In this document: in pieces, positions 17,483 to 52,975 of the stretch | How positions within the stretch are numbered: position 1 is the stretch's first letter | How the letters are laid out: each line of letters starts with the position of its first letter | Assembly (NCBI RefSeq): GCF_038725785.1 | Contig: NZ_CP109796.1 | Span: 6,014,501-6,078,500 of the forward strand | Origin: Termitidicoccus mucosus | GTDB lineage: Bacteria > Verrucomicrobiota > Verrucomicrobiia > Opitutales > Opitutaceae | DNA: 64,000 nt | Direction of reading: 5' to 3' | Program-made: the position numbers and the translations under genes | Notes under the pieces: generated by a model | Seen by the model: the letters and a program-made list of their open reading frames with translations, nothing else | What the model was told of the DNA's origin: nothing | The model's database searches: none

Positions 17483-22058
<4,576 letters not shown>

Positions 22059-22117: not shown

Positions 22118-22198
22118 TGGAGGGCCGAGCTCCTGCGAGGCCGTCGCGGTTAACCGTGGTGCCCCGCCGCGACGGCCTCGCAGGAGCTCGACCCTCCA
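22118..22198. repeat. 32-bp near-perfect inverted repeat between the two GH2 genes
   Basis: Arms at 22118-22149 and 22167-22198 match over 32 bases with one mismatch and a 17-base loop. The arm begins tggagggccgagctcctgcg. A half copy of the same arm starts at 25110. The 302-bp gap holding it (22059-22360) shows nothing else except an AG-rich segment similar to the inverted repeat at 18502-18607. Confidence 0.85.
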
Positions 22199-22360
22199 AA
22201 AACATAGGTGCCAGAGTCTAAAAATAACTTGGGAATGGTATTATTCTTTATCATGCCTCTTTCTCCTCGTTATTTTCGCCCCATCGCCGGATGGAAAAAT
22301 AAAGAGAAAGAGAAAAAATAGAGAATAAATACCAACCCCGCGTTCCGCGTTTTTTATATT

Positions 22361-32236: not shown

Positions 32237-32698
32237 CTAGGACCTGTTAGCACTATTGAGGAGTAGCCAAGAGAGAGCGAAGGAGACGAAAGAGCGGAAG
32301 AGGACATCGAGCTTGTCGTAGCGGGTGAAGACGCGACGGAAGCCCTTGATGCGGCGGAAGAGGCGCTCGACGTGGTTGCGCTGGCGGTAAAGTGCCTGGT
32401 TGAGTTTCCAGGGTTTTCGACGCAACGGGTTGGGCGGGACGACAGGCTTGAAGCCGAGCAGGCAGGCCAAGCCGCGGGTTTCGTTGCCTTCGTAGGCCAT
32501 GTCCATGGCCAGGGCGCATCCATGCCTCGGGCATCCCAACTCGCCAATCAGCTCGCGTCCCTCGGGTCCGTCGCCGTTCTGCCCGGGCGAGAGGCGGAAG
32601 CCGAGGGCATGGACATCATTCGCGGCAGCCAGATGAATCTTGGTGTTCCGGCCTCCTCGTGATTTGCCGATCGCCTGAGGCCCGTTTTTTTCTCCGCC
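32237..32698 (-). CDS. IS5-family transposase, C-terminal frame (OrfB, made by -1 frameshift)
   Basis: Past the slippery site the frame reads GEKNGPQAIGKSRGGRNTKIHLAAAND, then the second catalytic aspartate (MDMAYEGNETRGLACLLG) and the glutamate in QALYRQRNHVERLFRRIKGF, the normal end of an IS5 DDE transposase. It is open further upstream (to 32890) but those residues overlap OrfA and are not transposase-like, so it is shown from the slip site. A heptamer A-AAA-AAC on the minus strand fits programmed -1 frameshifting. The stop lies 3 bp outside the inverted repeat, in the TA duplication/flank. Confidence 0.8.
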   Translation of the reverse strand, partial: GGEKNGPQAIGKSRGGRNTKIHLAAANDVHALGFRLSPGQNGDGPEGRELIGELGCPRHGCALAMDMAYEGNETRGLACLLGFKPVVPPNPLRRKPWKLNQALYRQRNHVERLFRRIKGFRRVFTRYDKLDVLFRSFVSFALSWLLLNSANRS

Positions 32699-33063
32699 CC
32701 GGTCCCATCGGGGTGGACCTTCACGCTGGTACTGTCCAGCGACACCACCTTCAGCTCCAGATGCACCAGCCCTTCCTTCTGCAGCCGCTCGAACACCCGG
32801 TCCCATACTCCGCTTTTGCTCCAGCGATTCATCCGCGTGTAGATCGTGTGCCAGTTCCCAAACCTCTCCGGCAATCTCCTCCATTTGCACCCGTTCTCCG
32901 CCACATACAGCACCCCGTTTAGAAAGCTCAGCACATCAATGCTCACATTGCCCCGCTCCACCGGCAGGCTGTCCTTGATTCTCTCCAGGTGTTCCTTCGT
33001 CAGTTCCATTCCCCTCCTCATACGCATAAATCACCGTCAAGTGCAATTAATGTTAACACGCCC
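32240..33063 (-). mobile_element. IS5-family (IS427-like) insertion sequence
   Basis: The 824-bp element has imperfect terminal inverted repeats (ggacctgttagcac at 32240 and gtgttaacacgccc ending 33063) and a 2-bp TA duplication on each side (32238-32239 and 33064-33065), as expected for the IS427 group. Two overlapping frames on the minus strand encode one DDE transposase through a frameshift. Both ends and the reading frames look intact, so the copy may still be mobile. Confidence 0.88.
32548..33027 (-). CDS. IS5-family transposase, N-terminal frame (OrfA)
   Basis: The 159-residue frame contains the N-terminal DUF4096-type domain (FLNGVLYVAENGCKWRRLPERFGNWHTIYTRMNRW) and the first catalytic aspartate in LKVVSLDSTSVKVHPDGTG. 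Beyond the A7 tract (minus-strand gag aaa aaa acg, plus-strand T7 at 32685-32691) the frame reads unrelated residues, so the biologically useful product depends on a -1 shift into OrfB. The first ATG at 33027 (MRMRRGMELTKEHLERIKD) is plausible; the internal MELTKEH is an alternative. It acts on IS ends in the cytoplasm. Confidence 0.85.
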   Translation of the reverse strand: MRMRRGMELTKEHLERIKDSLPVERGNVSIDVLSFLNGVLYVAENGCKWRRLPERFGNWHTIYTRMNRWSKSGVWDRVFERLQKEGLVHLELKVVSLDSTSVKVHPDGTGAEKKTGLRRSANHEEAGTPRFIWLPRMMSMPSASASRPGRTATDPRDAS

Positions 33064-33089: not shown

Positions 33090-33467
33090 TCAGCCTTTTT
33101 CTATCAGCTCCACTTCGTAGCCTTCGGGCGCGTCGATGAACGCGATGGTGTCGCCTGACGAGGTTCGCGTCAGACCGTCGCTCAGCTTGCAGCCTTTCTT
33201 TTCCAGTCCGGCGGCGAAGGCGGCCAGGTCGTCCACCTCGAACGCCAGGTGCATCAAGTCCGGCTGCACGCGCACCGGCTCGGCGCCGGGCAACTCGCAG
33301 AGCTCGATTTCCTCGTCGCTGCCCGGCGTCCGAAGGAAGGCCAGCTTCGCGCCGCGCGGCGAGATCGTCTGGCGGACGCATTTGAGGCCGAGGATTTCCT
33401 CATAAAACTTGATGGTGCGCGCGATGTCATCGACGCGCATGCGGGTGTGAAGAAGTTTTTTGACCAT
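33090..33467 (-). CDS. gloA: lactoylglutathione lyase (glyoxalase I)
   Basis: A 125-residue protein of the vicinal oxygen chelate fold with two beta-alpha-beta-beta-beta halves. It begins MVKKLLHTRMRVDDIARTIKFYEEILGLKCV, and the metal-ligand pattern is complete: His in LLHTRM, Glu in EEIELCEL, His in LMHLAFEVDD, Glu in YEVELIEKG. It converts the hemithioacetal of methylglyoxal and glutathione (or another thiol) to a lactoyl thioester. The start at 33467 is used; a longer frame begins at 33488. It is the last gene in the minus-strand run that starts with the corrinoid cluster, 147 bp after the regulator, and may be unrelated functionally. Confidence 0.92.
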   Translation of the reverse strand: MVKKLLHTRMRVDDIARTIKFYEEILGLKCVRQTISPRGAKLAFLRTPGSDEEIELCELPGAEPVRVQPDLMHLAFEVDDLAAFAAGLEKKGCKLSDGLTRTSSGDTIAFIDAPEGYEVELIEKG

Positions 33468-33614
33468 GAGGCGGACAGGGTTGCCCACATGCCGGGAAAA
33501 CGCAATCGCAGCCGGCGGTCCGGCATGGCATTTTTGTCGTGCGCCATTTGGTGTCTGGCGGCGGCATCGGCAGTCCTGCGGGGTGTTCCGGGAGCCGCCC
33601 GCCGAACACCAATC

Positions 33615-34826
33615 TCATGCCTTGGAGTGCGGGGCGCGCACGCGGCGGCGGTAGTCGAGCGGGGTTTCGTTGAAGGTTTTTTTGAAGACGCGCGTGAAAT
33701 AACTCTGCTCGCTGAAGCCGCAGGCGGCGGCGATTTCCACCACGGTGCTGCTGTCGCGCGCGAGCATGCGGCGGGCGTTGTCGAGGCGGATGCGCAGGAG
33801 CAGTTCGGTGAAGGACACGCCGGCGCGTTCGCGCATGAGGTGCGAGAAATGGCTGGCCGACAGCCCGGCGGCGCGGGCAACCTCGTCGCGCCCGAGATTT
33901 TCGGAAAAATGCTGCTCCATGTAGGCGACGGCGCGGGCCAGTTGCACGGCGTTGGGGTGCGCGGCGGGCGCGCCCATCGCGTCGATGAGCTGCTCGAGCA
34001 TTTCGCAGAGCCAGTCCGACAGGTCCTCCTGCGAGTGCACGCCGGCCAGCTCGGTGAGCGAGCGGTAGTTGATGCCGAGCACTTTTTCGGGCTCGGCGCC
34101 GGCCTGCACGGCGGCGCGCGCCATCATGACGACGAGTTCGAGGGCGAGGGTTTTCAGGAGGCCGCGGCGCCCGGCGCCGCGGGTGTAGATGGCGGTGAGG
34201 ATGCGGTTGATGATGCCGCGCGCCTCGGCGCGCTCGCCGCGCTGGATGGCGGCGAGGAGCGCGGGCTCCTCGCGCAGGTAGATGCTGCGGATGTCGTCGT
34301 AGAGGCGCTCCTTCAGGTCGTGCAGCGCCTCGGCGCGGCCGGACTCGCGCTCGGCGGCGAGGCGGTTTTTTTCGAGCAGGGCGGTGTTGGTGAGGTTGTG
34401 GCGCGAGGCGAGGTCGAGGAGCGCCCGGCTGGCGTCGAGCAGGCGGCGGTCGAGCGTGCCGGCGCCTTCGAGTTCCTCCAGCGACACGCCGCCGACGAGC
34501 AGGCCGCCGAGGATCTGGTGGTTGTGCATCACGGGGACGGCCCAGAGCGCGTGGCCGAACGGGCAGCACATGATGCAGGGTTCGCCCCAGCGCAGGGTTT
34601 CCTCGACGGACTGGCGGAAGACCGCGCGATGTTCCTCGGGCCCGGCGGTGCAGCGCACCTCGCCGCGCAGCAGGCCGCCGCGCGCGTCCACGGCGGCGAG
34701 TTCGAAGCCGGTCTCGCCGTGATAACTGATGGCGAGCCGGTCAAACTCGGCGATGGTCAGCGCGCCGGGAAGAAGTTCGGCGGGGCGGGCGGATGGCGGG
34801 CGGGATTTTTTGGCGGGAGGAGGCAA
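33615..34826 (-). CDS. AraC-type regulator with PocR-like sensor domain
   Basis: A protein of about 403 residues. The N-terminal half resembles the PocR sensory domain, with cysteines at CTAGPEEH and CIMCCPFGHALWAVPVMHNHQILGGLLVGG. The C-terminal 100 residues are a two-helix-turn-helix AraC DNA-binding domain (DEVARAAGLSASHFSHLMRERAGVSF and IAAACGFSEQSYFTRVFKKTFNETPLDYRRR). PocR-like domains are commonly found in regulators of cobalamin- and corrinoid-dependent pathways, so control of the adjacent methyltransferase genes is likely. The longest start is a TTG at 34826 and there is no upstream ATG, so the exact start is uncertain. Four copies of a heptamer lie just upstream. Confidence 0.88.
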   Translation of the reverse strand: MPPPAKKSRPPSARPAELLPGALTIAEFDRLAISYHGETGFELAAVDARGGLLRGEVRCTAGPEEHRAVFRQSVEETLRWGEPCIMCCPFGHALWAVPVMHNHQILGGLLVGGVSLEELEGAGTLDRRLLDASRALLDLASRHNLTNTALLEKNRLAAERESGRAEALHDLKERLYDDIRSIYLREEPALLAAIQRGERAEARGIINRILTAIYTRGAGRRGLLKTLALELVVMMARAAVQAGAEPEKVLGINYRSLTELAGVHSQEDLSDWLCEMLEQLIDAMGAPAAHPNAVQLARAVAYMEQHFSENLGRDEVARAAGLSASHFSHLMRERAGVSFTELLLRIRLDNARRMLARDSSTVVEIAAACGFSEQSYFTRVFKKTFNETPLDYRRRVRAPHSKA

Positions 34827-34835
34827 GGCGGAGGA

Positions 34836-34867
34836 AATTACGAATTACGAATTACGAATTACGAATT
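34836..34867. repeat. tandem heptamer aattacg x4 upstream of the regulator
   Basis: Four perfect copies of aattacg (34836-34863) and a partial fifth copy sit 10 bases upstream of the regulator's TTG start, in its probable leader or promoter. Change in copy number would alter spacing. The remainder of the gap to the next gene is not obviously structured. Confidence 0.85.
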
Positions 34868-35024
34868 GGGCGCTGCCGCGCCGGAGAGGGACGGGGGTGG
34901 TTTGGAAAATGCAAGGGGCTGATGGGACGGATTCGGCTGGCGGGTGGCGTATGTTATTTTTTGGGATTTGTCCGATTGGAATTTTTTCTTGTTACTTGCC
35001 ACTTGTCACTTGGGACTTGCGCTC

Positions 35025-36761
35025 CTACGGGAGCGCAAGCTGGTCGATATAGGTATCCTCGAAGGCCGGCTGGAGGTTGAGCTCGATGCTTTCCATCAGG
35101 TCGCAGGCGCGGGCGATTTCGGGGAGGAGCCCGCGGTCTTGCAGCACGGCAAGCGCGCCGCCGAGCGAGGTGTTTCCGACGACCTCGATCTGGCGCGGTT
35201 CGAAGCCGGGGAGCAGGCCGCAGGCGATGGCGTTGTCGAGGTCGAGGTGCATGCCGAAGCCGCCGGCCAGGTGCAGCGTGCGGATGTCGGCGGGGGCGAG
35301 TCCGGCGATGTCGAGCAGGGTGGCGATGCCGGCGGCGACGGCGGCCTTGGCTTGCAGGAGGCGGGCGATGTCGGGCTCGGTGACAAGCACCGGGCCGGAG
35401 CGTCCGCGCGGGTCGAGCACAAAGGCGCGGGCGTCGTCGTGCGTGATGAACGCGGATTCCGCGCCGGACGGCGGCGGGGCGGCGAAGCGGCCGCGCTCGT
35501 TGAGGAGGCCGGAGCGGCGGCCCTCGGCGAGAAAGTCGATGTAGGCCGAGCCGCAGATGCCGACGGACCGGAGGTGGTTTTGGCCGGCGTTTTTTCCGCC
35601 GCCGATGAGCGAGAGTTTTTGGGCGAACGGGTCGCGGGAAAAACGGATGTCCTCGATGACGCCGTCCACGGCGCGCATGCCGCTGGCGAGCCCGGCGCCC
35701 TCGAAGGCGGGGCCGGCGGCGGTGGCGGTGCCGAGCAGGCGCGGGCCGTGCTTGAGGATGATTTCGCCGTTGGTGCCGACATCGACGAGGAGCGCGGGGC
35801 CGTCGTCGTGGAGCAGGCCGGTGACGAGGATGCCGGCGGACAAATCCGCGCCGACGTAGGCGGCGGGGCCGGGGAGCAGGTGGGCGTCGGCGGGCGCGCT
35901 TCCGCCGAACGAGAGCCCGAGCGCGGCGGGCACGAGGCGGCGGTGCCCGAGAAACGGCGGTGTGAACGGGAAGACGCCGATGGGCGAGGGATCGACGCCC
36001 GCGAGGAGGTGCAGCATCACGGTGTTGCCGGCGACGACCAGCGAGCGCACGTGCGCGAGGTCGGCGGACGCGTTGGAGCAGGCTTTTTCCAGCAATTGCT
36101 GGATGGTGCCGGCGGCGGCGGACTGGAGCACGGGAAGGTTTTTTTGCGGATCGGCGGCGCAGAGGTTGATGCGGGTGAGCACGTCCTCGCCATGGCGGAC
36201 CTGCGCGTTGAAGGCGGAGGCGGTGGAAAGGGTTTCGCCGGTGCGCAAGTCGCAGAGCAGGAGCGCGACGGTGGTGGTGCCGAGGTCAACGGCCGCGCCC
36301 AGCCACGGTTCGCCGGTGGAGGCGGGCGGCGGCGCGAGGGGATCGAGGGAGCGGGGGATTTTTATCCGGAAATTGGATACGACGGAGGGCTCGTGGCGCA
36401 GGAGGGCGCGCGCGGGGATCTCGATGAATGCGGAATGCGGATTGCGGAATGCGGAATTAATCGATCCTTCGACGGCCTGGGTTTGTAATTCCGCATTCAT
36501 CGCGTGGCGGCAGGCCTTGATTGTCGCGGGGGCATGGATGGTTTCGTTTGTATCAATGGAACGGATACTTCCGGCGGCAAGCCGGACCTCGCAGGCGCGG
36601 CAGAGGCCGCGTCCGCCGCAGCGGGTGTTGAGCGGGTGGTGATGCGCGGCGAGAAGGGCGGAGAGCGGCTGCGCGGGCGAACCGGGCACGGGGAGCGGGA
36701 TTTCGTGCCCGCCGTCAGGCGTGCGGATGATGAGGCGTGGGGCGGGCGATGCGGGTGTCAT
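35025..36761 (-). CDS. RACo-like corrinoid activation protein (2Fe-2S ferredoxin + ASKHA domain, DUF4445)
   Basis: The protein has 578 residues. The N-terminus is a [2Fe-2S] domain (NTRCGGRGLCRACEVRL with C-x5-C-x2-C and a later Cys in IKACRHAM). The rest is the actin-like ATPase part of DUF4445, with AAVDLGTTTVALLLCDL, VVAGNTVMLHLLAGVDPSPIG, YVGADLSAGILVTGL and LLVDVGTNGEI. RACo proteins reduce Co(II) corrinoid back to active Co(I) using ATP. Its start overlaps the DUF1638 stop (ATGA). An insert of about 27 residues (about 87-113) right after the fourth Cys is encoded by a repeat with perfect 15-bp inverted ends (36422-36436, 36488-36502), in frame. Confidence 0.92.
   Translation of the reverse strand: MTPASPAPRLIIRTPDGGHEIPLPVPGSPAQPLSALLAAHHHPLNTRCGGRGLCRACEVRLAAGSIRSIDTNETIHAPATIKACRHAMNAELQTQAVEGSINSAFRNPHSAFIEIPARALLRHEPSVVSNFRIKIPRSLDPLAPPPASTGEPWLGAAVDLGTTTVALLLCDLRTGETLSTASAFNAQVRHGEDVLTRINLCAADPQKNLPVLQSAAAGTIQQLLEKACSNASADLAHVRSLVVAGNTVMLHLLAGVDPSPIGVFPFTPPFLGHRRLVPAALGLSFGGSAPADAHLLPGPAAYVGADLSAGILVTGLLHDDGPALLVDVGTNGEIILKHGPRLLGTATAAGPAFEGAGLASGMRAVDGVIEDIRFSRDPFAQKLSLIGGGKNAGQNHLRSVGICGSAYIDFLAEGRRSGLLNERGRFAAPPPSGAESAFITHDDARAFVLDPRGRSGPVLVTEPDIARLLQAKAAVAAGIATLLDIAGLAPADIRTLHLAGGFGMHLDLDNAIACGLLPGFEPRQIEVVGNTSLGGALAVLQDRGLLPEIARACDLMESIELNLQPAFEDTYIDQLALP
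36422..36502. repeat. 81-bp palindromic repeat inside the RACo-like gene
   Basis: The ends cgatgaatgcggaat (36422-36436) and attccgcattcatcg (36488-36502) are perfect inverted repeats, with extra gcggaatgcgg direct repeats inside. It is read in frame and adds residues of the type NSAFRNPHSAF. A related sequence occurs inside hemE near 52365-52440. Confidence 0.85.
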
Positions 36762-37678
36762 GAGTCATGGGCATTCTGGCCGTGGACGCCTTCGCCGGGC
36801 ACGGGCGGGACGCCCGTGCCACCGCAGGGCGCTTCCGCGCCGCTGTTTGTTTGGGATTTGGCCCTTTGGGATTTGGCCCTTTGGGATTTGGGATTTTTCC
36901 CTGCGGGCGGCTCGTCAACGGCCTTGATGACGCGGTCGTCGATGCTGAGCTGCACAAACTGGCGCGGCTGCACGACGAGGAAACGGTCGTCGTCCCAGCG
37001 GCCGGCGAGCAGGTCGCGGAGGAGCCGCGGGTCGCCCTGCACGCGCCGGAAATCCCAGCCCATCCAGCAGGCGCAGCGGCGGGTGTAGGCGATGTTGGCG
37101 TCCGCATCGCCGACGCCGAGGTCCACGTAGGCGGCGGTGGTGTAGTGCGCGTGGAGTTCCTTTTCCATCTCGATGAGGTAATCGGCCTCCTCCTCGGGAA
37201 ATTTTTTCAGGAAATCGTCGCGCAGTTTGGCGAAGCGGTCGGGGCCGGGCGCGGCGTGGCATTTGTTCCAGCCGGGGCTGTACCAGTAGGTGGCGGGGTT
37301 TTCCTGCTGGAACTGCTGGTAGCGTTCCTTCGAGCCGAGCAGGAGCGTGATGCAGTCGTGCGCGCGGGGCACGACCATGCGGCAGCGGCGCAGCGGAATG
37401 GCTTCGATGCCGCGGCTGCACACGCCGTAAACCAGCGCGATGGCTTCCGCCCGGCCTTCGGCCTCGACGGCGGCGACCGCCCCGGCGACGGTGGTGTTGA
37501 GGCGCGCGGGCTCGTTGTGCAGGCCCTGCGGGAGAAACGTGAGGCTCGTGATGTGCGGCAGCCCGGCGGCAAACGCGCGCACTTCATCCTCCAGCACGGC
37601 GCAGGCGATGATGGCGGTCCGGGGCGGAGAAACCGGGGCGGGCGCAGGCGGGAGGGCGTTGTCGGAATCGTGAGGCAC
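36758..37678 (-). CDS. DUF1638 family protein
   Basis: A 306-residue protein with a GTG start. DUF1638 features are visible: IIACAVLEDEVRAF near the start, LVYGVCSRGIEAIPLRRCRMVVPRAHDCITLLLGSKERY in the middle, and TYWYSPGWNKC. Members usually sit beside corrinoid methyltransferases, and the conserved cysteines and histidines suggest a metal or corrinoid-linked job, though the biochemistry is not established. The last 60 residues (AGKNPKSQRAKSQRAKSQT...GTGVPPVPGEG) are low-complexity, encoded by a caaatccc-type tandem repeat and a gggcacgggcgggacgcccgtg palindrome, so the domain ends near residue 245. Its stop overlaps the RACo start. Confidence 0.85.
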   Translation of the reverse strand: MPHDSDNALPPAPAPVSPPRTAIIACAVLEDEVRAFAAGLPHITSLTFLPQGLHNEPARLNTTVAGAVAAVEAEGRAEAIALVYGVCSRGIEAIPLRRCRMVVPRAHDCITLLLGSKERYQQFQQENPATYWYSPGWNKCHAAPGPDRFAKLRDDFLKKFPEEEADYLIEMEKELHAHYTTAAYVDLGVGDADANIAYTRRCACWMGWDFRRVQGDPRLLRDLLAGRWDDDRFLVVQPRQFVQLSIDDRVIKAVDEPPAGKNPKSQRAKSQRAKSQTNSGAEAPCGGTGVPPVPGEGVHGQNAHDS

Positions 37679-37788
37679 GAGAGGGGAGACGCTGAAGCGA
37701 AAGGAAGACAGTGGGCCGGCACTGCCGCGGCGGAAACATCAAAATGGAAAAGAAAGCGCAAAACAGCCCTGGTATTTGCCTGTGCGTA

Positions 37789-39084
37789 TTATTGTCCGTG
37801 TGCGAGATCGGGTGGCGAATCGGCCATCGTGAGGGTGCGGAAGTTTTTTATGCGATGGAAGGTGACGCAGTTGGAGTTGTGGATGTTGTAGGCGTCCCAG
37901 GCGGTGCGGGACACGGCGATGAGGTCGTCGCCGTCGAACTGCCAGTCGAGGTATTGGAAGCCGAATTTGTCGCGGTTGGTCAACCGGCGGCCCTCGCCCC
38001 AGCGGAGGATGACGCTGTGCTCCGTCCAGTTGCGCAGGTCGGGCGAGGACGTGAGCATGATGACGTTGCGCTGCACGCGCGGGTGGTCGCGGCCGGTGTA
38101 GTCGGGCTGCGGGTTGGTGATTTTGTTGATGAGGCTCCAGTAGCGGTTCGTCCGCGGGTCGTGGCGGATGGTGAATTTGGTGATGCCGCCGGGGAAGTGG
38201 ATGAAGCCGGTTTTCGGATCGAAGGTGAGCGTCTTTTCGTCCTTCACCTCAAGCAGCGCGGCGGTCTCGAAGCGCGGGATGCCGGCGGCGGAGCCGGTGT
38301 GCGGAAAATCCTTCGCGGCGGGCGTGGGCGGGTCGTCGTTCAGGCGCATGATTTCGACGAGGCGGCCGCCGGGCCCGGGGACAACGTTGCCCTCCAGCCA
38401 GCCGTTGCGCGGGCCGGGGAGCCATTTAGGCTTGAAGGCGACGCGCTTGGCGAGCGTCCAGCTTTTCGCGTCGAGCAGGTCGGCCTCGACCGGCGCGGAA
38501 ATGACGAGCGCGCCGAAATAATCGCCCGACCATTTTTGCTCGGGGCCGCCGGTGTAGTCCTCGAACGCGCGCCAGATGCGGCCGTTGTGGATGACGACGG
38601 GCACGGGGGCGCAGTGAAACTCGCGTCCGCCGCGCTCGGTGAGCAGGCCGGACCGGGCATCGGCGGGAGTCGTCCAGGTGCGCCCGCCGTCGGAGGATTG
38701 GCGGATGGCAATCTCGCCGTATTCGCGGTTGGCGCCGAGCAGCCAGACGGCCCCGTTATGATAAAACAGGGTGGACCAGAACTGGTCCTGCAAGTGCGCG
38801 AGCTGCGTCCAGGTTTGGCCTTTGTCGCGGGAAGAGAACACGCGTGACGAGTGCAGCAACGCCTTCGCATCGGGGTCGGTTTTCTTGCCGAAGAAATCAT
38901 GCGACACGAGGTAGGAGCCGTCGGGCAGGATGAGGAGGGAGGGCGAACCGACGAAGTTGTGCTCGGGATTCGGCGAGGTGGCGACCACGACGCCGGGTGG
39001 CGGCGGGACGGCGGGGGCGGCGGCGTTTAATATAACACCGGCGAGGAGCGCGACGGCGAGGAAGGGGAGACCGGGTGTTTTCAT
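37789..39084 (-). CDS. secreted sialidase-like (BNR/Asp-box) protein
   Basis: A 431-residue protein with signal peptide (LPFLAVALLAGVILNAAAPA). Asp-box motifs SSRDKGQTWTQ and SSDGGRTWTTP indicate a six-bladed propeller of the sialidase superfamily. Sialidase-like proteins without proven sialidase activity are common in Verrucomicrobia and some act on other sugars. The canonical FRIP motif is not seen, so the substrate is open. It lies inside the corrinoid methyltransferase run, between a UroD-type methyltransferase and DUF1638. A MITE-like repeat starts 6 bases upstream of its start codon, in the place where its promoter or leader should be. Confidence 0.8.
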   Translation of the reverse strand: MKTPGLPFLAVALLAGVILNAAAPAVPPPPGVVVATSPNPEHNFVGSPSLLILPDGSYLVSHDFFGKKTDPDAKALLHSSRVFSSRDKGQTWTQLAHLQDQFWSTLFYHNGAVWLLGANREYGEIAIRQSSDGGRTWTTPADARSGLLTERGGREFHCAPVPVVIHNGRIWRAFEDYTGGPEQKWSGDYFGALVISAPVEADLLDAKSWTLAKRVAFKPKWLPGPRNGWLEGNVVPGPGGRLVEIMRLNDDPPTPAAKDFPHTGSAAGIPRFETAALLEVKDEKTLTFDPKTGFIHFPGGITKFTIRHDPRTNRYWSLINKITNPQPDYTGRDHPRVQRNVIMLTSSPDLRNWTEHSVILRWGEGRRLTNRDKFGFQYLDWQFDGDDLIAVSRTAWDAYNIHNSNCVTFHRIKNFRTLTMADSPPDLAHGQ

Positions 39085-39089
39085 GTTAT

Positions 39090-39210
39090 TATAACGTTTT
39101 CATTTATATTGGCGCGGCAGCGCCGGTAGGGCGAAGCCTCCGGCTGAGCCGCGGCTCAGCGGGGACGCCTCGCCCTACCTTTTGGGCCAATGGTGAGAGA
39201 AAATACTATA
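39090..39210. mobile_element. MITE-like element, copy C
   Basis: A 121-bp element with ends tataacgttttcattta and gagagaaaatactata (near-inverted). The palindromic core has cggtagggcgaagcctccgg and ggacgcctcgccctacc on either side of gctgagccgcggctcagc. It closely matches 54454-54576 (same orientation) and, in reverse, 25174-25281. It lies just upstream of the sialidase-like gene. Confidence 0.8.
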
Positions 39211-39314
39211 TATGATGTCAATTTTCATTGGCGTTCCTCCATTTGAAAAAATTCAATCTTTTGGGAAATGACTATTATATATTTTGCGGCCACGGGCGGG
39301 GCCGCGAAAATAAA

Positions 39315-40469
39315 TCAGATCATCGCCTCGTAGTTCCCATATATGGCGGCGGTCTCGACGAGGGCGGCGAGGTTTTCGCGCTTGGCGGCGCGGGGGACGA
39401 CGCAGCCGGAGCCGAGTATATAACCGCCGCCCGCGCCCGCGCCTTCGATGCACCGACGGGCTTCGCCCATGATTTGCGCGGGGGTGCTGTTGATAAACGA
39501 GAGGGTGTTGACGCCGCCCATGAGCGAGGCGCGGGCGCCGACGGTTGCGCGCACCTGGGCGGCGGTGACACCGCCGAGCGGATCGAGCGGGGCGATGCAG
39601 TCGAGGCCGGTCTCGACCAGATCCTCGATGATGGGCATCACGTTGCCGCAAATATGACAATACACGCGGGCGTCCTTGTCGTGGGCGTGAACCTCGTCGC
39701 AGAAGTGTTTGAAGCGCGGTTTTATAAACCGGCGCCACAGGGCGGGAGAGATGACGGACATGTTGCCCGCGGAGTCATTCAGGCGCAGGACCTTCAGCCC
39801 GAGGTCGAGGTTGAACTTGGCGCGCTCGATGGCGATTTCGACGCCCTTGTCCATCACGGCCTCGACGAGCTCCGGTTCCTCCAGCAGGTCCATCAGCGCG
39901 TTGTTCATTCCCCGGAATGATATATAAAACGCGAGGGTGGGGGAGTCGCAGTCGCCGATGATGTCGAGTTTATCCCCGGCCCGCCGCTGCTGCGCGCGCA
40001 TGCGCCCCGCCCAGCCGAAACGCTCGTAGTCGGCGCGGGTGGGGACGTGCATGCGGGCGGCGTCCGCGACGCTGTTTACCAGGGGATTTTCGCACGTCCA
40101 GTAGTGATGGTGCGCCATCATATAGGGATCCTCCAATATAAACATGGCCGGATCGTCGAGGTGGGTGACGAGGCCGCCGAGCATGTCCACCTCGCCGCGC
40201 CGCGCGCCGTGCTCGTCGAACTCGATGACCTTGCCGTCCTGCTCCCGGATTTTTTTGGCGGGGAAATGCCACATGCGCACGGCGTCGAAGCCGCAGGCGA
40301 GACCGGCGTCGGTCATCACGCGCAGGGCGGTTTCGGGGCTGGTGACGATTTCCTTGAGATCAACGCCGAGGATGACGGCGGCGAGGTCGACCCATATTTT
40401 GGGGATGACGGGGACCCGGTCGGGTTTGCCGCCGGAGATGGCGGTAAAGACGCGTTCTTGGGCGTTCAT
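39315..40469 (-). CDS. UroD-family methyltransferase (corrinoid system, paralogue 3)
   Basis: A 384-residue TIM-barrel protein. It opens MNAQERVFTAISGGKPDRVPVIPKI, the usual start of methyltransferase members of the uroporphyrinogen decarboxylase superfamily. The zinc ligands of that group are present: His and Cys in YCHICGN, then Cys in LGSGCVVP. Such enzymes move methyl groups to or from a corrinoid protein (MtaA-, MtvB-type) and lack the HemE arginine cluster. The start at 40469 is used because the longer frame reads low-complexity hydrophobic residues. It is separated from paralogue 2 by 214 bp with its own possible promoter (a near-palindromic ttgattgcatgcatcaa at about 40609). Substrate unknown. 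Confidence 0.88.
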   Translation of the reverse strand: MNAQERVFTAISGGKPDRVPVIPKIWVDLAAVILGVDLKEIVTSPETALRVMTDAGLACGFDAVRMWHFPAKKIREQDGKVIEFDEHGARRGEVDMLGGLVTHLDDPAMFILEDPYMMAHHHYWTCENPLVNSVADAARMHVPTRADYERFGWAGRMRAQQRRAGDKLDIIGDCDSPTLAFYISFRGMNNALMDLLEEPELVEAVMDKGVEIAIERAKFNLDLGLKVLRLNDSAGNMSVISPALWRRFIKPRFKHFCDEVHAHDKDARVYCHICGNVMPIIEDLVETGLDCIAPLDPLGGVTAAQVRATVGARASLMGGVNTLSFINSTPAQIMGEARRCIEGAGAGGGYILGSGCVVPRAAKRENLAALVETAAIYGNYEAMI

Positions 40470-40683
40470 TTGGGCTGGGGATAGAAAAGCTGAAGAGTGG
40501 CTAAATCGGATTAGCAAAAAGGCAAAATAAAAATGCAAGGGCGACGCGAAAAAGAAAAACAACCGGAATGGTTTTGTGTGTTTGGGGAGGACAAAGAGAA
40601 AGGGGAAATTGATTGCATGCATCAATCTATACTAATTTCTTCTGCGGAAATTTAATCTTCCCTCCCCGGAAAGGCCGCGCATT

Positions 40684-41682
40684 TTATGGTTTTATGGGGG
40701 CGCAGAGGGCGCGGAGGTTTTCCGGCGGGGTGGGCGGGGGGATTTCGCAGCCGGCGTTGACCATGAACGGCGCGCCGGCGATTTCGTAGCAGCGAAGGGA
40801 GGCGGCGCGGATGGCGTCCGGGGTGCTGTTCATCACGCCGGCGACGGGGTTGATGTTGCCGCCGAGCACTATTTTCGGGCCGAGGATGCGGCGGGCCTCG
40901 GCGAGGTCCACCATGTGGTCTATGTCGATCACGTCGAGGCCGAGCGTGGCGAGTCCGGGCAGGATATGCGTGATGTTGCCGCAAATGTGCATGCGCACGA
41001 ACACGCCCATGGCGTGGAGCGCGTCCACGAGTTTTTTCTCCAGCGGGAGGATGAGGTTTTCGTAGGTGGCGGCGGAAACCTGGCTGGCGACGGCGTCGCC
41101 GATGCCAATGGTGTCGGCGCCGGCCTCGACTTGCGGGCGGGCGAACTCGACGGCGACATCGACGCAGTGCTCCATGAGGGCGCGCGCATAGTCCTCGTCG
41201 TCGAGCAGGTCCATGAAGAAGTTGGAGACGGTGCGCAGATCGCCGGCCTCGGCCGCCGGGCCCTCGACCCAGCCCATGATGGAGTAGCGGTCGCCGGCGC
41301 GGCGCTTGTATTCGCGGACGGCGTTGATGCGGTCGAGCATGCGTTCCGCCTTGAGGGGGTCGGGGCGGGGGAGCCTGGTGAAGTCGGGGTCGTCCTCCAG
41401 CGGGTGTTTTTCGCAGTAGGGAACGCCGTCGCGGGGGTAGATGATTTTCGCGCCGTAGCCCTGGGTCTCGCGGTAGGGGTCGGACATCGTGTTCAACTGG
41501 TCGATGCCGAATTCTTCCGCGCAGCGAAGGTTGGACTCGGCGAGCACGCGGTAGTCGGACGCGAAGGCGTCGTAGTGCGAGCCGATGTGCTCGGCGGCGA
41601 ACTGCATGAGGATGGGCAGGCGCGGGAGGATGTCGGGCCGGCGGCCTTGGAGGACGGCAAAGTAGCGTTCGCGCGGAGTCAT
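40684..41682 (-). CDS. UroD-family methyltransferase (corrinoid system, paralogue 2)
   Basis: A 332-residue protein of the uroporphyrinogen decarboxylase superfamily with MTPRERYFAVLQGRRPDILPRLPILMQF at the start. The barrel carries the zinc-ligand set RMHICGN and NAGCEIP, which marks cobamide methyltransferases rather than HemE. It is one of three such genes on this strand and lies between the CobW-like gene (46 bp upstream) and paralogue 3. Relatives include vanillate-type aromatic O-demethylases and CoM methyltransferases. Here the methyl donor cannot be named. It is probably cytoplasmic, working on the corrinoid protein encoded at 43542-44180. Confidence 0.88.
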   Translation of the reverse strand: MTPRERYFAVLQGRRPDILPRLPILMQFAAEHIGSHYDAFASDYRVLAESNLRCAEEFGIDQLNTMSDPYRETQGYGAKIIYPRDGVPYCEKHPLEDDPDFTRLPRPDPLKAERMLDRINAVREYKRRAGDRYSIMGWVEGPAAEAGDLRTVSNFFMDLLDDEDYARALMEHCVDVAVEFARPQVEAGADTIGIGDAVASQVSAATYENLILPLEKKLVDALHAMGVFVRMHICGNITHILPGLATLGLDVIDIDHMVDLAEARRILGPKIVLGGNINPVAGVMNSTPDAIRAASLRCYEIAGAPFMVNAGCEIPPPTPPENLRALCAPIKP

Positions 41683-41727
41683 GGCGGGGTGTGAAAAATT
41701 AAGAATTAAGAATTGGGGCGGGGAAGT

Positions 41728-42354
41728 TCAGAGGGTGAGGGGGATGATTTTATCGTCGTCGGCATTGGTGGCGGGGGTATCGGCGGCGGGGGGCGTGATA
41801 ATCTCGTCGGCGAGGGCGAGCAGCGTGGAGAGAAACAGGGGAAGCGTTTGTTGCGCGGCGCGGACACGGGCCCAGGCGGCGCTGAGGCAGACGACGAGCG
41901 TGCGCGGCCAGCCGACCACGCGGTCGAACTCGGCGAGCAGGCGCGGCGCGGCGATATCGGGGATTTTTATGAAAAGGTGTGAGACCGGCTCGCCGGGGAC
42001 GCCGCACATGGAGCGGACGGCGACGGGCAGGCCGGCGAGTTCGGGACAGCACGGGCAGGGGAGGGTGAGTTTGTTGACGCGCGCGCCGGGGAAGTCGGTG
42101 TCGTCACTGTGGCGGGCGAGCAGACCGCCGTCGTCGATGACGAGGACGGCGGTGCGGGCGGAGGCGGGGCAGGCGGCGAGTCGCCGCTGAATGCAGCGCG
42201 TGCGGCCGGAGCGGCGCGGGCCGGTGACGAAGGTGCAGGGCGGAATGGCGGGCATGGGCGGGTCGCCCATGCCACGCAAACCCACGGGCGGGACGCCCGT
42301 GCCACTCGAACCCGCGGGCCGGCCGGCCGCGCCGCTTAGCTCGTCACGGGGCAT
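41728..42354 (-). CDS. CobW-like (G3E) protein with degenerate Walker A
   Basis: About 208 residues. The start of the fold reads PCTFVTGPRRSGRTRCIQRRL where a G3E GTPase would have a GxxGxGKT loop; the lysine is replaced by arginine and the loop is altered. VLVIDDGGLL follows, then the LPCPCCPEL motif, matching the family's CxCC metal-binding motif. The protein is short and lacks the second CobW domain. G3E proteins deliver metals or assist cobalamin-enzyme maturation. One in a corrinoid operon fits a helper role, but nucleotide binding is doubtful. The start is uncertain (42354, 42270 or 42255); the N-terminus is built partly from the GTGVPPV-type repeat. Confidence 0.6.
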   Translation of the reverse strand: MPRDELSGAAGRPAGSSGTGVPPVGLRGMGDPPMPAIPPCTFVTGPRRSGRTRCIQRRLAACPASARTAVLVIDDGGLLARHSDDTDFPGARVNKLTLPCPCCPELAGLPVAVRSMCGVPGEPVSHLFIKIPDIAAPRLLAEFDRVVGWPRTLVVCLSAAWARVRAAQQTLPLFLSTLLALADEIITPPAADTPATNADDDKIIPLTL

Positions 42355-43406
42355 TGCATGAAGGCGTCCACCTTGCGCATGATCTCGGCCTCGCTGCCCG
42401 GGACGCTGAGCACGTCGCATTCGGAGCCGAGGATGAAGGGGTGCCCGGCGGCGGACATTTTTTCAACGAGTTCGCAGGCCATCTGGGCGACGGCTTCGGC
42501 GCTGAGCTGCGTGGCGTAGAATTGTTTGCTGGGCAGGTTGCCGTAGAGGACGGTGTCTTTCGGCACGAGCGCGGCGTCTTTCCAGAGCGCGCGCGAGCAG
42601 CCGAGGCTGATCATGGACGCGCCGAGCGTGGCGAAACGGTTCACCATCTCGTCGGTAAGCTCGCCGCAATCGTGGAAAATCAAGTCCACGCCGCGCGCGC
42701 GCAGCAGCGCGGCGATGCGGCGCATGGGCTCCATCACGTAGCGCTCGAAGACGTCGTAGCCGGTTTCCTCCTGCTGTTTTGGCGAGAAATAAACCAGGTT
42801 GGCGGCGGGCTCGCAAATGACGAGGGCCTTTGCACCGGCGTCGATTTGCGCCGTCAGGTAGCGGTGGATGACCTGCTCGCCGAGCGCGAGGAGGCGCTCG
42901 ACCAGCGCGACCTCCGGGTCGTCCTCGGCGGCGAGCCCGTTGCCCGCGAGGAAGACCGGCATGATCGGGTCGGTGACGAGCTTGGTCATCAACGAAAACG
43001 GCCCGATGCCCATGCCCATCGGCACGAGGGCGGGATGGGTTTCGGCGATGTGCGTGATGGCGCCGCAGGTGGCGGTCATGCGCGGCGTGAGCGGGATGGA
43101 CGCCGGGGCGGCGGGCGGCTCGGTGAAATGATGGCTGTCAGCCTGGCTGGCCGGGATGCCGCAGGCGAGGAGCAGCGCGGCCTTCTCCAGCGTGAGGTCC
43201 ATGAGCGGCATGGCGAGCGGCGTGGAAAAACGCGCCGCGGCCTCGGCCACGGTCGCGCCGAGACGCGCGCCGTCGTGAATGATGGCCTCGTGATCGGCAT
43301 GCCGGTGCAGCACGAGATGCGTGCCGATGGGCACGCGGTGGTTTTGTCTGGCGAGGTCGAGGAGGAGGGCGCGGGTCATGGGGACGATGGGATTTGCGGG
43401 ACGCAT
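42336..43406 (-). CDS. UroD-family methyltransferase, MtaA/MtbA-like (corrinoid system, paralogue 1)
   Basis: A 356-residue protein closest in feel to methylcobamide:CoM methyltransferases: MGMGIGPFSLMTKLVTDP in the barrel, the zinc ligands in LIFHDCGE, then GSECDV near the end. It begins 136 bp downstream of the corrinoid-protein gene and overlaps the following CobW-like gene if the latter starts at 42354. The start could also be the ATG at 43379. It may transfer the methyl group onward from the corrinoid protein or load it; the direction is unknown. The adjacent corrinoid protein makes it the best candidate for a direct partner. Confidence 0.9.
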   Translation of the reverse strand: MRPANPIVPMTRALLLDLARQNHRVPIGTHLVLHRHADHEAIIHDGARLGATVAEAAARFSTPLAMPLMDLTLEKAALLLACGIPASQADSHHFTEPPAAPASIPLTPRMTATCGAITHIAETHPALVPMGMGIGPFSLMTKLVTDPIMPVFLAGNGLAAEDDPEVALVERLLALGEQVIHRYLTAQIDAGAKALVICEPAANLVYFSPKQQEETGYDVFERYVMEPMRRIAALLRARGVDLIFHDCGELTDEMVNRFATLGASMISLGCSRALWKDAALVPKDTVLYGNLPSKQFYATQLSAEAVAQMACELVEKMSAAGHPFILGSECDVLSVPGSEAEIMRKVDAFMQCPVTS

Positions 43407-43541
43407 GCGACAGGCATGGGCGCGGGCCTGGCAGACTTGGCGTGTTTTTGCGCGGAACCTGTTCGCGATCTTCTTCGCGATGAGGAACGAAACGCAGGCT
43501 GGAAAGCCCGCGCTCCTGTTGCGGGGGCGCCGGGGCGGAAC

Positions 43542-44180
43542 TCAGTTCGCGCCGACGAGTTCGACAGCCTTTTCGACGGCGGAACCGGCGTCGGCGGTAT
43601 AGGCGTCGGCTCCGATTTCGTCGGCGAATTGCTGCGTGATGGGGGCGCCGCCGATCATGATTTTGCCCTTGGGCAGATTGGCGGCCTTGAGGGCGGCGAC
43701 GGTGGCCTTCATCGCGGGCATGGTGGTCGTGAGGAGCGCGGAGAGGCCGATGAGGTCGGGATTGTGCTGCTTGGCGGCGTCGATGAATTTCTGCGGATCG
43801 ACGTTGGTGCCGAGGTCGATGACGCGGAAGTTCGCGCCCTTCCACATCATGGCGACGAGGTTTTTGCCGATGTCGTGGAGGTCGCCCTGCACGGTGCCGA
43901 TGACGGCGGTGTATTTCGGGACGATGCCGGCCTTGGCGAGGAGCGGTTCGAGCAGGATCATCGACTCCTTCATGGCGCGGGCGGCGACGAGCATCTCGGG
44001 AACGAAGATTTCGTTGCGCTTGAATTTCTCGCCGACGATGCCCATGGCGCGCACGAGGGCGTCGTCCACGATTTGCTGGAGCGGGATGCTGGCATCGAGC
44101 GCCTGCTGGGTGAAGGCCTTGGCGTCTTTGCTGCGGCCGATGATGACGGAATTCGCGAGTTGTTCGAGAATGGGGTGCAT
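43542..44180 (-). CDS. corrinoid (B12-binding) methyltransferase protein
   Basis: A 212-residue two-domain protein. The N-terminal helical cap (residues 1-85, EKFKRNEIFVPEMLVAARAMK) precedes a Rossmann B12-binding domain with the cobalt-ligand motif GDLHDIGKN (His about 102). The size and order match MtaC/MtbC/MtvC-type corrinoid proteins that carry the methyl group between methyltransferases. It is the first gene of the minus-strand run and is followed by the MtaA/MtbA-like gene. Reactivation would be by the RACo-like protein encoded downstream. All landmark residues are intact. Confidence 0.95.
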   Translation of the reverse strand: MHPILEQLANSVIIGRSKDAKAFTQQALDASIPLQQIVDDALVRAMGIVGEKFKRNEIFVPEMLVAARAMKESMILLEPLLAKAGIVPKYTAVIGTVQGDLHDIGKNLVAMMWKGANFRVIDLGTNVDPQKFIDAAKQHNPDLIGLSALLTTTMPAMKATVAALKAANLPKGKIMIGGAPITQQFADEIGADAYTADAGSAVEKAVELVGAN

Positions 44181-44364: not shown

Positions 44365-46353
44365 TTACATGAAGGGCAAAGAGATGATCGCATTGTTTGC
44401 GGTCCAGTCGAGTTTGGGAAAGCCGGCGCGGGGAGCGGGGCGGCCGAGGCGGCGGCGGAGGCGGCGAGGCCAGCCGCGCGGAAGGAGCATGGCCGGGCCG
44501 CTGGTGAGTTCGGGGCGGCCGATGGCGACTTGGCCGAGCCCGCGCAGGGCGATGCGGAGCGGGAGGCGCGGGTCATCGACGGGCACGGAAAAGGGGCGGG
44601 CGAGGGCGGCGCGGGGACGGGCGGCCTCGGCGCGGAATTCGATGGTGAAGCGGCTGTGGAGGTCGAGCCAGGCGCCGTCGGGCCAGCGTTGTTGGACGAC
44701 GATTTTCTGGAGGGCCGGAGCGTGGTTGTGGACGATGAAGGTGAGCTGCCAGCGTCCGCAGACGGGCGTGGCTTCGTGAACGCGCGCGGGATCGCGCCGG
44801 ACGGCGCGGAGCCAGTCGCGCCAGGCCCGGAGGCGGGCCTGGTCGGCGTCGAGGATAAGTTCGTTCTGGCTGCGGGTGCGCGGGTCGCGGGTGCGCGTCC
44901 ACATGAGGCGCGCGGCGCGGCGGGCCTGCCTGACGGCGGCGGCGAAGCCGCGGGCGGACGGGGTGGCGGCGCGTAAGGTCGATTGCCAAGTCCGCCTTGA
45001 GGCAGGCAGGTCCGGCGATGCCATTTGGCGAAGCGCAAAAACGGTTTGCTGGCAGGCGGCGATGAAGGCGTCCCGGGTTTCGAGGTAGTCGAGAAAGGCG
45101 ATGCTGGCGGCGAGCGGGGCGGGCAGGGCGGCCCGGGGCGCGGCATGGGGCGTTTGGAGGCTGGCGGTTGAGGCTTTGGGGGGATTTCGGCGTTGGGTTT
45201 CGGGCTTTGTTTTCCGGGGCGCGGCGACATCCCAGCGGTCGTTGATTTCCCAGCGGGCGTAGCCGGTGAAGGCCCGGGCGTCGCAGGCGAGCGCGGCGCG
45301 GGCGGACGGGAGGGAGTTTTTGCGGCCGAAGAGGCGGGCAAAACCGCGCGCGAGCATGCGCTCGTCGTTGGCGGCGAGGGCGGGCGCGTCGAGCCAGAGC
45401 GAGGCGGCGGCGGCATCGACGACGACGGCCAGCTCGAACGCGAGGCGGAAGGGCTCCCAGGAGGTGACGAGGAAACCCGAGGCTTGCGTGCGGCGGCAGC
45501 GAGTCCACCAGGAGCGGAGGTTGGCGAGGCGGTCGCGGAAGAGCGGGAGCAGCTCGTGGCGGAAGGCGCCGTTCATGGGGCAGCCGTAGTAGTCGATGCC
45601 GCGGGCGCGGAGGGCGGGGGCGAGGTCGCGTTCGGCGAAGTTGTGCAGTTCCACGCGGGGAGCGCGGGCGAAAGGGTAATAATACCAGTCGTAGGCGGCG
45701 AGACCGCGCGGGAGCCGCGCGATGGCGGCGGGGATGAGGTTGAGCATGTCGGCCCAGATGCCGGCGCGGAGGCCGCGCGCGGCGGCGAGGGCGTGAAGGC
45801 GGCGGACGTATTCGGAAAAATGATACGAAAGGCCGCGGCGGGCGATTTCGTCGCGGCAGCGCGGGCAGCGCCCGAGCGAGAAGGATTCGTCGAGGCCGAG
45901 GTGGATTTTGCCGGCGGTGCAGAAGGGGAGGACGTCGCGGATGAGCCTGTCGGCGGTGTCGAGGGTGCGGGGATGGAGCGGGCAGAGCTGTCCGGCGGGC
46001 AGGGGCGAGCCGTCGGGGGCGCGGAGTTCGTTGAGGTCGCGCAGGCCGGGGGTTTTTATGAGATACTGGGTGTGGCCGAGGAGGTTGACGATGGGGACGG
46101 TGGCGATGCCGTGGCGCGCGGCGGTTTCGACGAGGCGTGCGAGTTGCGCGTGCGAGTAGGCATCGCGGCGGGCGACCTCGGGAAGGCCGGGGTAAACGAC
46201 GGCGTCCTCAAGGTGAAGATAGAGCTCCTGGTAACCCCAGTCGGCATAGCGGGGCAGGAGGCGCAGGAGGAAGGGGAGGCGTTCGACCTGGCGTGCGAGG
46301 TCCCACTGGAAGGCGCGGACGGGAAGGGCGGTGCTGGCGGAGGCGGGGGGCAA
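44365..46353 (-). CDS. GH20-like glycosidase (beta-N-acetylhexosaminidase type)
   Basis: A protein of about 662 residues. The TIM barrel shows the D-E pair in KIHLGLDESFSLG (normally HIGGDE), with GIATVPIVNLLGHTQYLI and WWTRCRRTQASGFLVTSWEPF as further blocks. The second half is helical and low in similarity to known domains. There is no clear signal peptide, so it may be cytoplasmic. The longest start is a TTG at 46353. A perfect palindrome lies 84 bp upstream. It could cleave N-acetylhexosamine from oligosaccharides. Its adjacency to the corrinoid genes (184 bp gap) is notable. A segment near residue 385-400 contains repeat-like text. Confidence 0.75.
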   Translation of the reverse strand: MPPASASTALPVRAFQWDLARQVERLPFLLRLLPRYADWGYQELYLHLEDAVVYPGLPEVARRDAYSHAQLARLVETAARHGIATVPIVNLLGHTQYLIKTPGLRDLNELRAPDGSPLPAGQLCPLHPRTLDTADRLIRDVLPFCTAGKIHLGLDESFSLGRCPRCRDEIARRGLSYHFSEYVRRLHALAAARGLRAGIWADMLNLIPAAIARLPRGLAAYDWYYYPFARAPRVELHNFAERDLAPALRARGIDYYGCPMNGAFRHELLPLFRDRLANLRSWWTRCRRTQASGFLVTSWEPFRLAFELAVVVDAAAASLWLDAPALAANDERMLARGFARLFGRKNSLPSARAALACDARAFTGYARWEINDRWDVAAPRKTKPETQRRNPPKASTASLQTPHAAPRAALPAPLAASIAFLDYLETRDAFIAACQQTVFALRQMASPDLPASRRTWQSTLRAATPSARGFAAAVRQARRAARLMWTRTRDPRTRSQNELILDADQARLRAWRDWLRAVRRDPARVHEATPVCGRWQLTFIVHNHAPALQKIVVQQRWPDGAWLDLHSRFTIEFRAEAARPRAALARPFSVPVDDPRLPLRIALRGLGQVAIGRPELTSGPAMLLPRGWPRRLRRRLGRPAPRAGFPKLDWTANNAIISLPFM

Positions 46354-52853: not shown

Positions 52854-52975
52854 GCCGGAATGCTGGGAGCCGGGGCGCGAAAGGCGAGACCGGAGGCGGG
52901 GGATCATGCCACTGTCCCCAATCATGCCAATCGCGGCCCCCTTGACAAAACAGGACGCGTAGGAAAAGGTAAGAC

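Follow-up and report, generated by a model that had tools for sequence, protein, structure and literature searches.

The described systems that come closest to the locus treated here are the methanol system MtaABC of methanogens and acetogens, the mlp clusters of Kountz and Balskus (PMC10418091), the split methionine synthase and MtgCD systems of roseobacters (PMC5764234, PMC12478193) and the methanol system of Brockarchaeota (PMC8065059). The locus is a row of ten genes, encoding a corrinoid carrier protein, three proteins of the uroporphyrinogen decarboxylase superfamily (UroD1, UroD2 and UroD3) and accompanying proteins, in Termitidicoccus mucosus (Verrucomicrobiota, Opitutaceae). It lies in a stretch of 64,000 nucleotides, called the window below, that covers positions 6,014,501-6,078,500 of contig C1 (NZ_CP109796.1, 7.82 Mb) in an assembly of two contigs that is 96.5% complete. 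On our best reading, the module is a variant of the known MtaABC and mlp clusters, with an unlinked methanol enzyme and thiol-type outlets. A carrier fed with methyl groups from methanol would pass them to a thiol, probably homocysteine, and would be reactivated by the RACo-type activase together with the DUF1638 protein; the chances that this is correct are about even. Statements attributed here to PMC10418091, PMC13391211, PMC5764234, PMC12478193, PMC8065059 and PMC13222342 refer to the available excerpts of these papers.

Comparison with known systems

The genome shares with MtaABC an MtaB homologue, an MtaC-like carrier, an MtaA-type UroD protein and a RACo-type activase. Its MtaB has the glutamate and two cysteine positions of this family and is encoded outside the window; being unlinked, it departs from MtaABC, as does the second enzyme, which is of the UroD type, and neither the folate-transferring MtaA of the acetogen (PMC13391211) nor ComA was found in the assembly. 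In the case of the mlp clusters, the likeness lies in several MtaA-like proteins with a His-Cys-Cys (HCC) site, a corrinoid protein and a Ram activase on one strand (PMC10418091); by profile and PDB matches, at least two MtaA-like proteins, a corrinoid protein and Ram are found on one strand here, with no folate methylase within 20 kb. The differences are an MtaB in the own genome and in the operons of relatives, the presence of DUF1638 and PocR, and the spacing, which is at most 2 kb between genes in mlp clusters and reaches 2.55 kb here (39315 in UroD3 to 36761 in RACo).

In the roseobacter systems, too, RamA-like and DUF1638 proteins accompany a corrinoid protein that stands alone (PMC5764234, PMC12478193), and a homocysteine methyltransferase near the carrier, which 17 of 72 relatives' loci have, adds to the resemblance; they differ in that no stand-alone pterin-binding partner was found here and that the MetH of this genome has an activation domain of its own. 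The Brockarchaeota system also combines MtaB and a carrier with no known folate-transfer enzyme, but it is archaeal, its MtaB is always beside its carrier, and no MtaA is reported in the excerpt (PMC8065059).

Gene content of the locus

Genes were called from open reading frames and from Pfam and NCBIfam searches of the window, with starts and coding scores taken from coding potential. In the order of transcription, they are as follows (aa, amino acids):

43542-44180, minus strand: stand-alone corrinoid carrier of the MtaC/MtgC type, 212 aa; B12-binding_2 5.8e-19, B12-binding 2.9e-28
42336-43406, minus strand: UroD1, UroD superfamily, 356 aa; URO-D 5.8e-17; putative ligands H245, C247 and C330
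41728-42270, minus strand: CobW-like P-loop protein with a CxCC motif; no Pfam match of its own
40684-41682, minus strand: UroD2, putative MtaA/CmuA-type methyltransferase, 332 aa; URO-D 5.6e-61; HCC site
39315-40469, minus strand: UroD3, putative MtaA-type methyltransferase, 384 aa, start by coding potential; URO-D 2.1e-41; HCC site
37789-39084, minus strand: secreted protein, sialidase-like by eye, 431 aa, between UroD3 and DUF1638; no Pfam or NCBIfam match
36758-37678, minus strand: DUF1638 protein, likely an accessory of corrinoid reactivation; PF07796 6.9e-37
35025-36761, minus strand: RACo/RamA-type corrinoid reductive activase, 578 aa; 2.7e-65 (PF14574, PF17651)
33615-34826, minus strand: PocR-domain AraC-family regulator, 403 aa; PF10114 25.1 bits (cut-off 23.9), PF12833 HTH_18 2.8e-24
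33090-33488, minus strand: glyoxalase-family protein at the low end of the row, candidate member of the system; PF00903 6.7e-21

From the corrinoid gene down to DUF1638, the intergenic gaps are 135, 65, 45, 214, 230 and 110 bp; the DUF1638 and RACo genes overlap by 4 bp and are followed by 198 bp up to the PocR gene. This close spacing is compatible with a single operon, whose co-transcription is putative and judged from the coordinates. The genes other than the CobW-like one are open frames with good coding scores. The role of the secreted protein in methyl transfer is doubtful.

Many loci of Verrucomicrobiota and Planctomycetota show the same grouping of corrinoid, UroD, DUF1638, RACo and PocR genes; it is not due to chance and is, as predicted from gene content, a real and conserved corrinoid methyl-transfer module. 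A preliminary description of this DNA had placed one corrinoid, three UroD, one DUF1638, one RACo-like and one PocR-AraC gene on one strand with close or overlapping ends, and all of them are present; it left the CobW-like and secreted genes of the row unmentioned, and the low end that it gave, 33467, falls inside the glyoxalase gene. Its proposal of a methyl-group utilisation system is supported.

Zinc sites and relatives of UroD1-3

When 154 UroD-like proteins are aligned, UroD1, UroD2 and UroD3 have H, C and C at the three positions that form the zinc site of MtaA-type enzymes, while the window's own HemE (51741-52907) has Y, K and H there, and the three proteins thus fail a HemE-type test. 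Across the 20 sequences aligned for UroD1, its ligands (H245, C247 and C330) do not vary. Within the UroD superfamily, HCC is the mark of sulfur- and selenium-methyltransferases, and in O-methyltransferases one or both cysteines are swapped for carboxylates or non-coordinating residues (PMC10418091). By this pattern, UroD1-3 are putative zinc enzymes of the thiol (MtaA-type) methyltransferase kind, and since all three carry HCC ligands, methoxy-aromatic compounds are argued against as their substrates.

The best solved relative of both UroD2 and UroD3 is MtaA (4ay7; 9.7e-23 and 5.7e-18, respectively), and UroD2 matches TIGR01463 at 2.5e-52 but with 178.3 of 235.4 bits, under the cut-off. UroD1 has no clear sequence relative in the PDB (best 0.014). 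Its AlphaFold2 model (predicted local distance difference test, pLDDT, 91.1) is a UroD-superfamily barrel whose fold is tied between human UROD 1jpi (Z 29.0, root-mean-square deviation (rmsd) 3.1, 310 aligned) and MtaA 4ay7 (Z 28.8, rmsd 3.2, 309 aligned), and Foldseek alone puts HemE entries above MtaA. A grouping of the UroD proteins with non-corrinoid enzymes, named beforehand as the outcome that would speak against a corrinoid system, is therefore not seen for UroD2 and UroD3, and for UroD1 the fold stands level between HemE and MtaA. In a tree of 150 proteins, the sister of UroD3 (support 1.0) is a paralogue from the same genome, flanked by a GH88-family gene on one side and the gene of a sodium:solute symporter on the other.

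An unlinked MtaB

One MtaB is encoded in the assembly (C1:137259-138626, 2.2e-160), followed by a second CobW-like gene. It is 1.9 Mb from the operon around the circle if C1 is circular, and otherwise 5.9 Mb along the contig. It exceeds the Pfam cut-off, reaches 390 of 720 bits with NF040651, under that cut-off, and aligns to Methanosarcina barkeri MtaB 2i2x_A at 1e-90, retaining the glutamate and two cysteine positions that we take to be the zinc ligands of MtaB. The protein is 75-78% identical to MtaBs found inside the corrinoid operons of four loci of relatives (L022, L029, L039 and L069), and the genes of L022 are arranged as DUF1638, RACo, PocR, carrier, UroD1, MtaB, CobW and UroD2.

The association was followed in 120 genomes of the same family, some of them incomplete, where a carrier match was taken at E <= 1e-30, with identities down to 44%. 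MtaB was found in 12 and a carrier match in 50 of the 120; 11 of the 12 MtaB genomes have a carrier match, against 39 of the 108 without MtaB (Fisher p 2.6e-4, with genomes treated as independent). In seven of the 11 other MtaB genomes (G006, G031, G036, G042, G060, G072 and G086), no more than 1.5 kb separates MtaB from the carrier. No carrier is present within the short MtaB stretches of G077, which belongs to the same genus, and G102; the MtaB genome G105 has no carrier match, and G005 of the sample has neither MtaB nor a carrier match. Methylotrophy has been proposed for Opitutaceae TAV5, with MtaB not named (Kotak 2015, PMC4358385).

Corrinoid carrier and its reactivation

The best PDB match of the carrier is 1y80 (E 7.8e-50), and its best NCBIfam model is MtgC, yet at 194.7 of 370 bits it is far under the cut-off. 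The closest corrinoid protein in the species collection, 97% identical, is from the Opitutaceae metagenome-assembled genome Nm470_bin120. In the assembly, which was searched for this and the other families below at E <= 0.001, PF02607 occurs in MetH and in the operon carrier only, so that the latter is the sole stand-alone PF02607 protein, in a search that rested on this family and whose reach does not extend to carriers with PF02310 only.

Genetics in Phaeobacter inhibens indicate that DUF4445/RamA-like and DUF1638 proteins are needed alongside a split methionine synthase, with no specific proposal for the role of DUF1638 in the excerpt (PMC5764234), and both kinds of protein are more abundant in Ruegeria pomeroyi on N-osmolytes (PMC12478193). 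Because the MetH of T. mucosus carries its own activation domain, the client of RACo and DUF1638 appears to be the operon carrier; service to MetH was considered and is less likely for the same reason. The activation domain of this MetH (L102:7872-11555, C1 near 1,447,900-1,451,500) is split in two by Pfam and holds a Zeta_toxin-like P-loop domain (PF06414, 1.1e-9), and the homocysteine domain is encoded upstream by a gene of its own.

The CobW-like protein of the operon has, by alignment, an arginine in place of the Walker A lysine, and its homologue in L022 matches cobW at 4e-10; it is a possible metallochaperone, perhaps decayed. Both own CobW-like paralogues (41728-42270 and, after MtaB, L101:11464-12414) have the Walker A lysine replaced and CxCC retained, and the lysine is retained in five relatives.

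Neighbour loci were retrieved via the carrier, so their statistics lean towards it. Of 101 stretches, 11 were dropped, as they had no surviving or contained carrier reading frame, eight of them within the first 80; the 72 classified loci are those of the first 80, and 20 later stretches partly repeat them. Immediately downstream of the carrier, 12 loci have UroD1, 12 have MtaB, eight UroDc7, three UroDc8 and two UroDc2; in the remaining 35 this gene is another one or unrecognised, a class that undercounts UroD1 (L046 and L047 have UroD1 after the carrier). Given this variety, the carrier family therefore works with several methyltransferase families, and corrinoid proteins of acetogens likewise pair with several (PMC13391211).

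Methyl acceptor and proposed mechanism

No match to PF06253, the MttB/MtgB family that would define a system of that type, to PF02007 (MtrH) or to PF02679 (ComA) was found in the assembly, and PF00809 is limited to MetH and folP, at 1.45 and 2.78 Mb of C1, with no stand-alone folate methyltransferase. The absence of MtrH-like and MttB-like genes, noted earlier for the window, thus extends to the whole assembly. The explanation then offered, that the UroD proteins act in both roles or that a folate partner is encoded elsewhere, was incomplete: what is encoded elsewhere is the substrate enzyme MtaB, and no folate partner was found. Glycine betaine was set aside as a substrate, with no MttB/MtgB family member in the assembly and the MtgC model of the carrier far under its cut-off. 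Coenzyme M (CoM) was set aside as acceptor with ComA not found, in a search limited to ComA that leaves other CoM routes or uptake possible.

Since neither a folate methyltransferase nor ComA was found, the methyl acceptor would be a thiol, and homocysteine, giving methionine, is presumably the likeliest final one. Besides the homocysteine S-methyltransferase next to MetH, the assembly encodes a second, stand-alone one (C1:3247790-3248608, PF02574). It is 50-59% identical to six queried members of the homocysteine S-methyltransferase family c6 (representative PF02574), the family counted above in 17 of the 72 classified carrier loci; a pterin-binding methyltransferase occurs in seven of the 72.

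The gene content, the failed partner searches, the conserved zinc ligands, the identity of MtaB and its linkage to the carrier in relatives are seen directly, and the reaction steps are all inferred from them. The corrinoid would be reduced to Co(I) by RACo with DUF1638, and a donor enzyme would load the carrier, the best-supported donor being methanol via the unlinked MtaB. The HCC zinc methyltransferases, of which UroD2 is the most MtaA-like, followed by UroD3 and UroD1, would then exchange the methyl group with a thiol, and homocysteine would be converted to methionine, perhaps via the second stand-alone homocysteine S-methyltransferase. The set would be switched on by the PocR/AraC regulator. 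In the methanol system of acetogens the methyl group is sent to folate (PMC13391211), while here MtaA-type thiol enzymes would take the place of the folate partner. In this glycan degrader, in which neither ComA nor a folate partner was found, methanol from pectin breakdown may feed methionine directly.

Scattered UroD-like paralogues

The assembly holds 25 URO-D matches, 20 of which are neither HemE nor UroD1-3 and lie scattered. The ligands of these 20 are HCC in two, HCH in six, HDH in three and mixed or gapped in nine, with aspartate at the second position in eight. Among 30 neighbours scanned in 17 paralogue regions (one or two per region, hand-picked and not always adjacent), there are nine glycoside hydrolases and three sulfatases, in 11 of the 17 regions, or 12 when counting DUF2961, which we take to be GH172. 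A control of 17 random regions, of which 16 were used after exclusion of one on this operon, covered 30 proteins; in the 25 families listed out of 57, three are glycoside hydrolase families and account for no more than 3 of these proteins (p 0.009 if they lie in three regions). The enrichment of glycan-related neighbours is a lead, not proof.

Two own proteins of family c8 are 49-68% identical to c8 proteins of 17 carrier loci, and the c8 ligands (H308, C310 and H395) are kept in 19 of 19 sequences. Among profile models, this family is hit by those of MtaA/CmuA but not by HemE. The predicted c8 structure (pLDDT 90.4) has the barrel fold of the UroD superfamily and aligns to UROD 1j93 with Z 25.0 (rmsd 3.4, 312 aligned) and to MtaA 4ay8 with Z 23.0 (rmsd 3.4, 301 aligned), and no MtaA is among the first 50 Foldseek entries. 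Families c7, c8, c9 and c12 cluster with the carrier and RACo or DUF1638 in Opitutae (L026, L028, L030 and L174-L177). Superclusters of this class (the same loci with L056 and L183) hold the carrier, RACo and/or DUF1638 and at least six UroD-like genes, L175 appearing to be the same record as L056. Searches of the open-access literature returned no paper that connects uroporphyrinogen decarboxylase to both corrinoid and glycoside hydrolase, to both Verrucomicrobi- and polysaccharide utilization, or to corrinoid, methyltransferase and Verrucomicrobi- together.

Alternative explanations

Several observations weigh against a methanol-fed transfer to homocysteine. The MtaB is not linked to the operon, homocysteine as acceptor is reached by inference alone, and the absence of ComA leaves room for another route to CoM or for its uptake. 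MtaB was not detected in 39 of the 50 family genomes with a carrier match, so the carrier and UroD1 must also act without methanol; in G051 and G002 (99 and 100% complete, carriers of 82-83% identity), which have no detected MtaB, UroD1 is the only recognised family beside the carrier. MtaB is likewise missing from 41 of 50 genomes of other loci, a sample from which most loci with MtaB in view were left out, and orthologues of UroD2 are found as well in L035 and L089, whose genomes have no detected MtaB. In genome G034, a more divergent MtaB (L123, contig 3) has a RACo fragment and a different, distant corrinoid protein as neighbours, and the carrier match of this genome is on another contig. 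Finally, the best NCBIfam model of UroD2 also covers the chloromethane enzyme CmuA, which makes a methyl halide a possible substrate; CdmB is a UroD-family haloalkane enzyme without zinc (PMC13222342).

The persistence of carrier and UroD1 without MtaB would fit a salvage of methyl-sulfur or methyl-selenium compounds as in mlp clusters, in which the UroD proteins move methyl groups from thio- or selenoethers to the carrier and also methylate a further thiol, with methanol incidental. The HCC site of all three proteins and the shared core of at least two MtaA-like proteins, a corrinoid protein and Ram/RACo on one strand with no folate methylase (PMC10418091) point the same way. We hold this to be somewhat unlikely, as MtaB is linked to the carrier in relatives (7 of 11), the UroD3-RACo gap is over the 2-kb rule, neither Pfam nor NCBIfam names a sulfur or selenium gene in the ten-gene row, and Verrucomicrobiota are not named in the main text of PMC10418091, as far as excerpted. 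A decaying leftover of an MtaABC operon from which MtaB has moved out would fit the loss of the Walker A lysine in the CobW-like protein, the transposase pair just past the low end, and L018, whose carrier is 97% identical and which has no UroD1 between carrier and P-loop gene and no MtaB found in its incomplete genome. This reading is very unlikely, as the rest of the operon consists of open genes that score well for coding and the zinc ligands of UroD1-3 are intact. A methoxy-aromatic O-demethylase of the OdmB/VdmB/MtvB type known from acetogens, the class implied by the preliminary description, shares a corrinoid protein, UroD-type enzymes and an activase with the locus. It is extremely improbable and was set aside on the zinc ligands, which in UroD1-3 are all HCC and not of the carboxylate or non-coordinating kind (rule of PMC10418091), and on the similarity to MtaA, the best solved relative of UroD2 and UroD3; no folate methyltransferase was found in the assembly either. 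OdmB, VdmB and MtvB themselves are set apart by the ligand rule, not by sequence.

A wider role of the carrier in glycan breakdown is compatible with methanol-fed thiol transfer. The single carrier might be a chromosome-wide hub onto which MtaB and about 20 dispersed UroD-type enzymes load methyl groups from pectin methanol and O-methyl sugars, an idea that we consider unlikely, and it is equally doubtful that the part of the operon in such a hub would be to supply the carrier, its reactivation and a thiol outlet. In its bearing on demethylation, with the 20 or so UroD-like enzymes unloading O-methyl sugars or related compounds onto the carrier, the idea is again judged unlikely. It draws on the presence of one stand-alone PF02607 carrier for 20 further UroD-like genes, on the 11 of 17 paralogue regions with glycoside hydrolase or sulfatase neighbours compared with at most 3 of 30 control proteins, on the grouping of families c7, c8, c9 and c12 with the carrier in Opitutae, on the match of c8 to MtaA/CmuA and not HemE models, and on the aspartate in eight of 20 paralogues, carboxylates at the cysteine positions being tied to O-methyl substrates (PMC10418091). 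However, the closeness of UroD families to the carrier is biased by retrieval via the carrier, the 30 neighbours were hand-picked in a genome rich in glycan genes and set against a control with 25 of 57 families listed, six paralogues are HCH and differ from the carboxylate pattern, and an O-methyl sugar as substrate is conjecture. If true, the hub would mean that polysaccharide utilisation in Verrucomicrobiota has a demethylation branch that has gone unrecognised, and the demethylation of glycan products would become a function of many UroD-like genes that resemble those of heme enzymes.

Other features of the window

No Rfam riboswitch match was found in the window, in the MtaB stretch (L101), in the MetH stretch (L102) or in the relative locus L022. 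A promoter scan gave one site, against 1.6 in shuffled sequence; terminator-like sites number 22, against 13.1 (standard deviation 4.0) in shuffles, are scattered over both strands and were not used as evidence. Just past the low end of the operon, at 32237-33027, two overlapping frames (DUF4096 and DDE_Tnp_1) form an IS4/5-type transposase. A GH20-like protein (PF00728 4.4e-9) is encoded at 44365-46353, in the same orientation as the corrinoid gene and adjacent to it on the upstream side. A pectin- or galactan-type locus at 7895-25042 comprises a RhaT-type rhamnose symporter, a GDSL esterase, an autotransporter-like protein, a GH43 and two GH2 proteins, and a DUF3142 protein (3e-34) lies at 62314-63609 beside a large protein with a marginal TPR match only.

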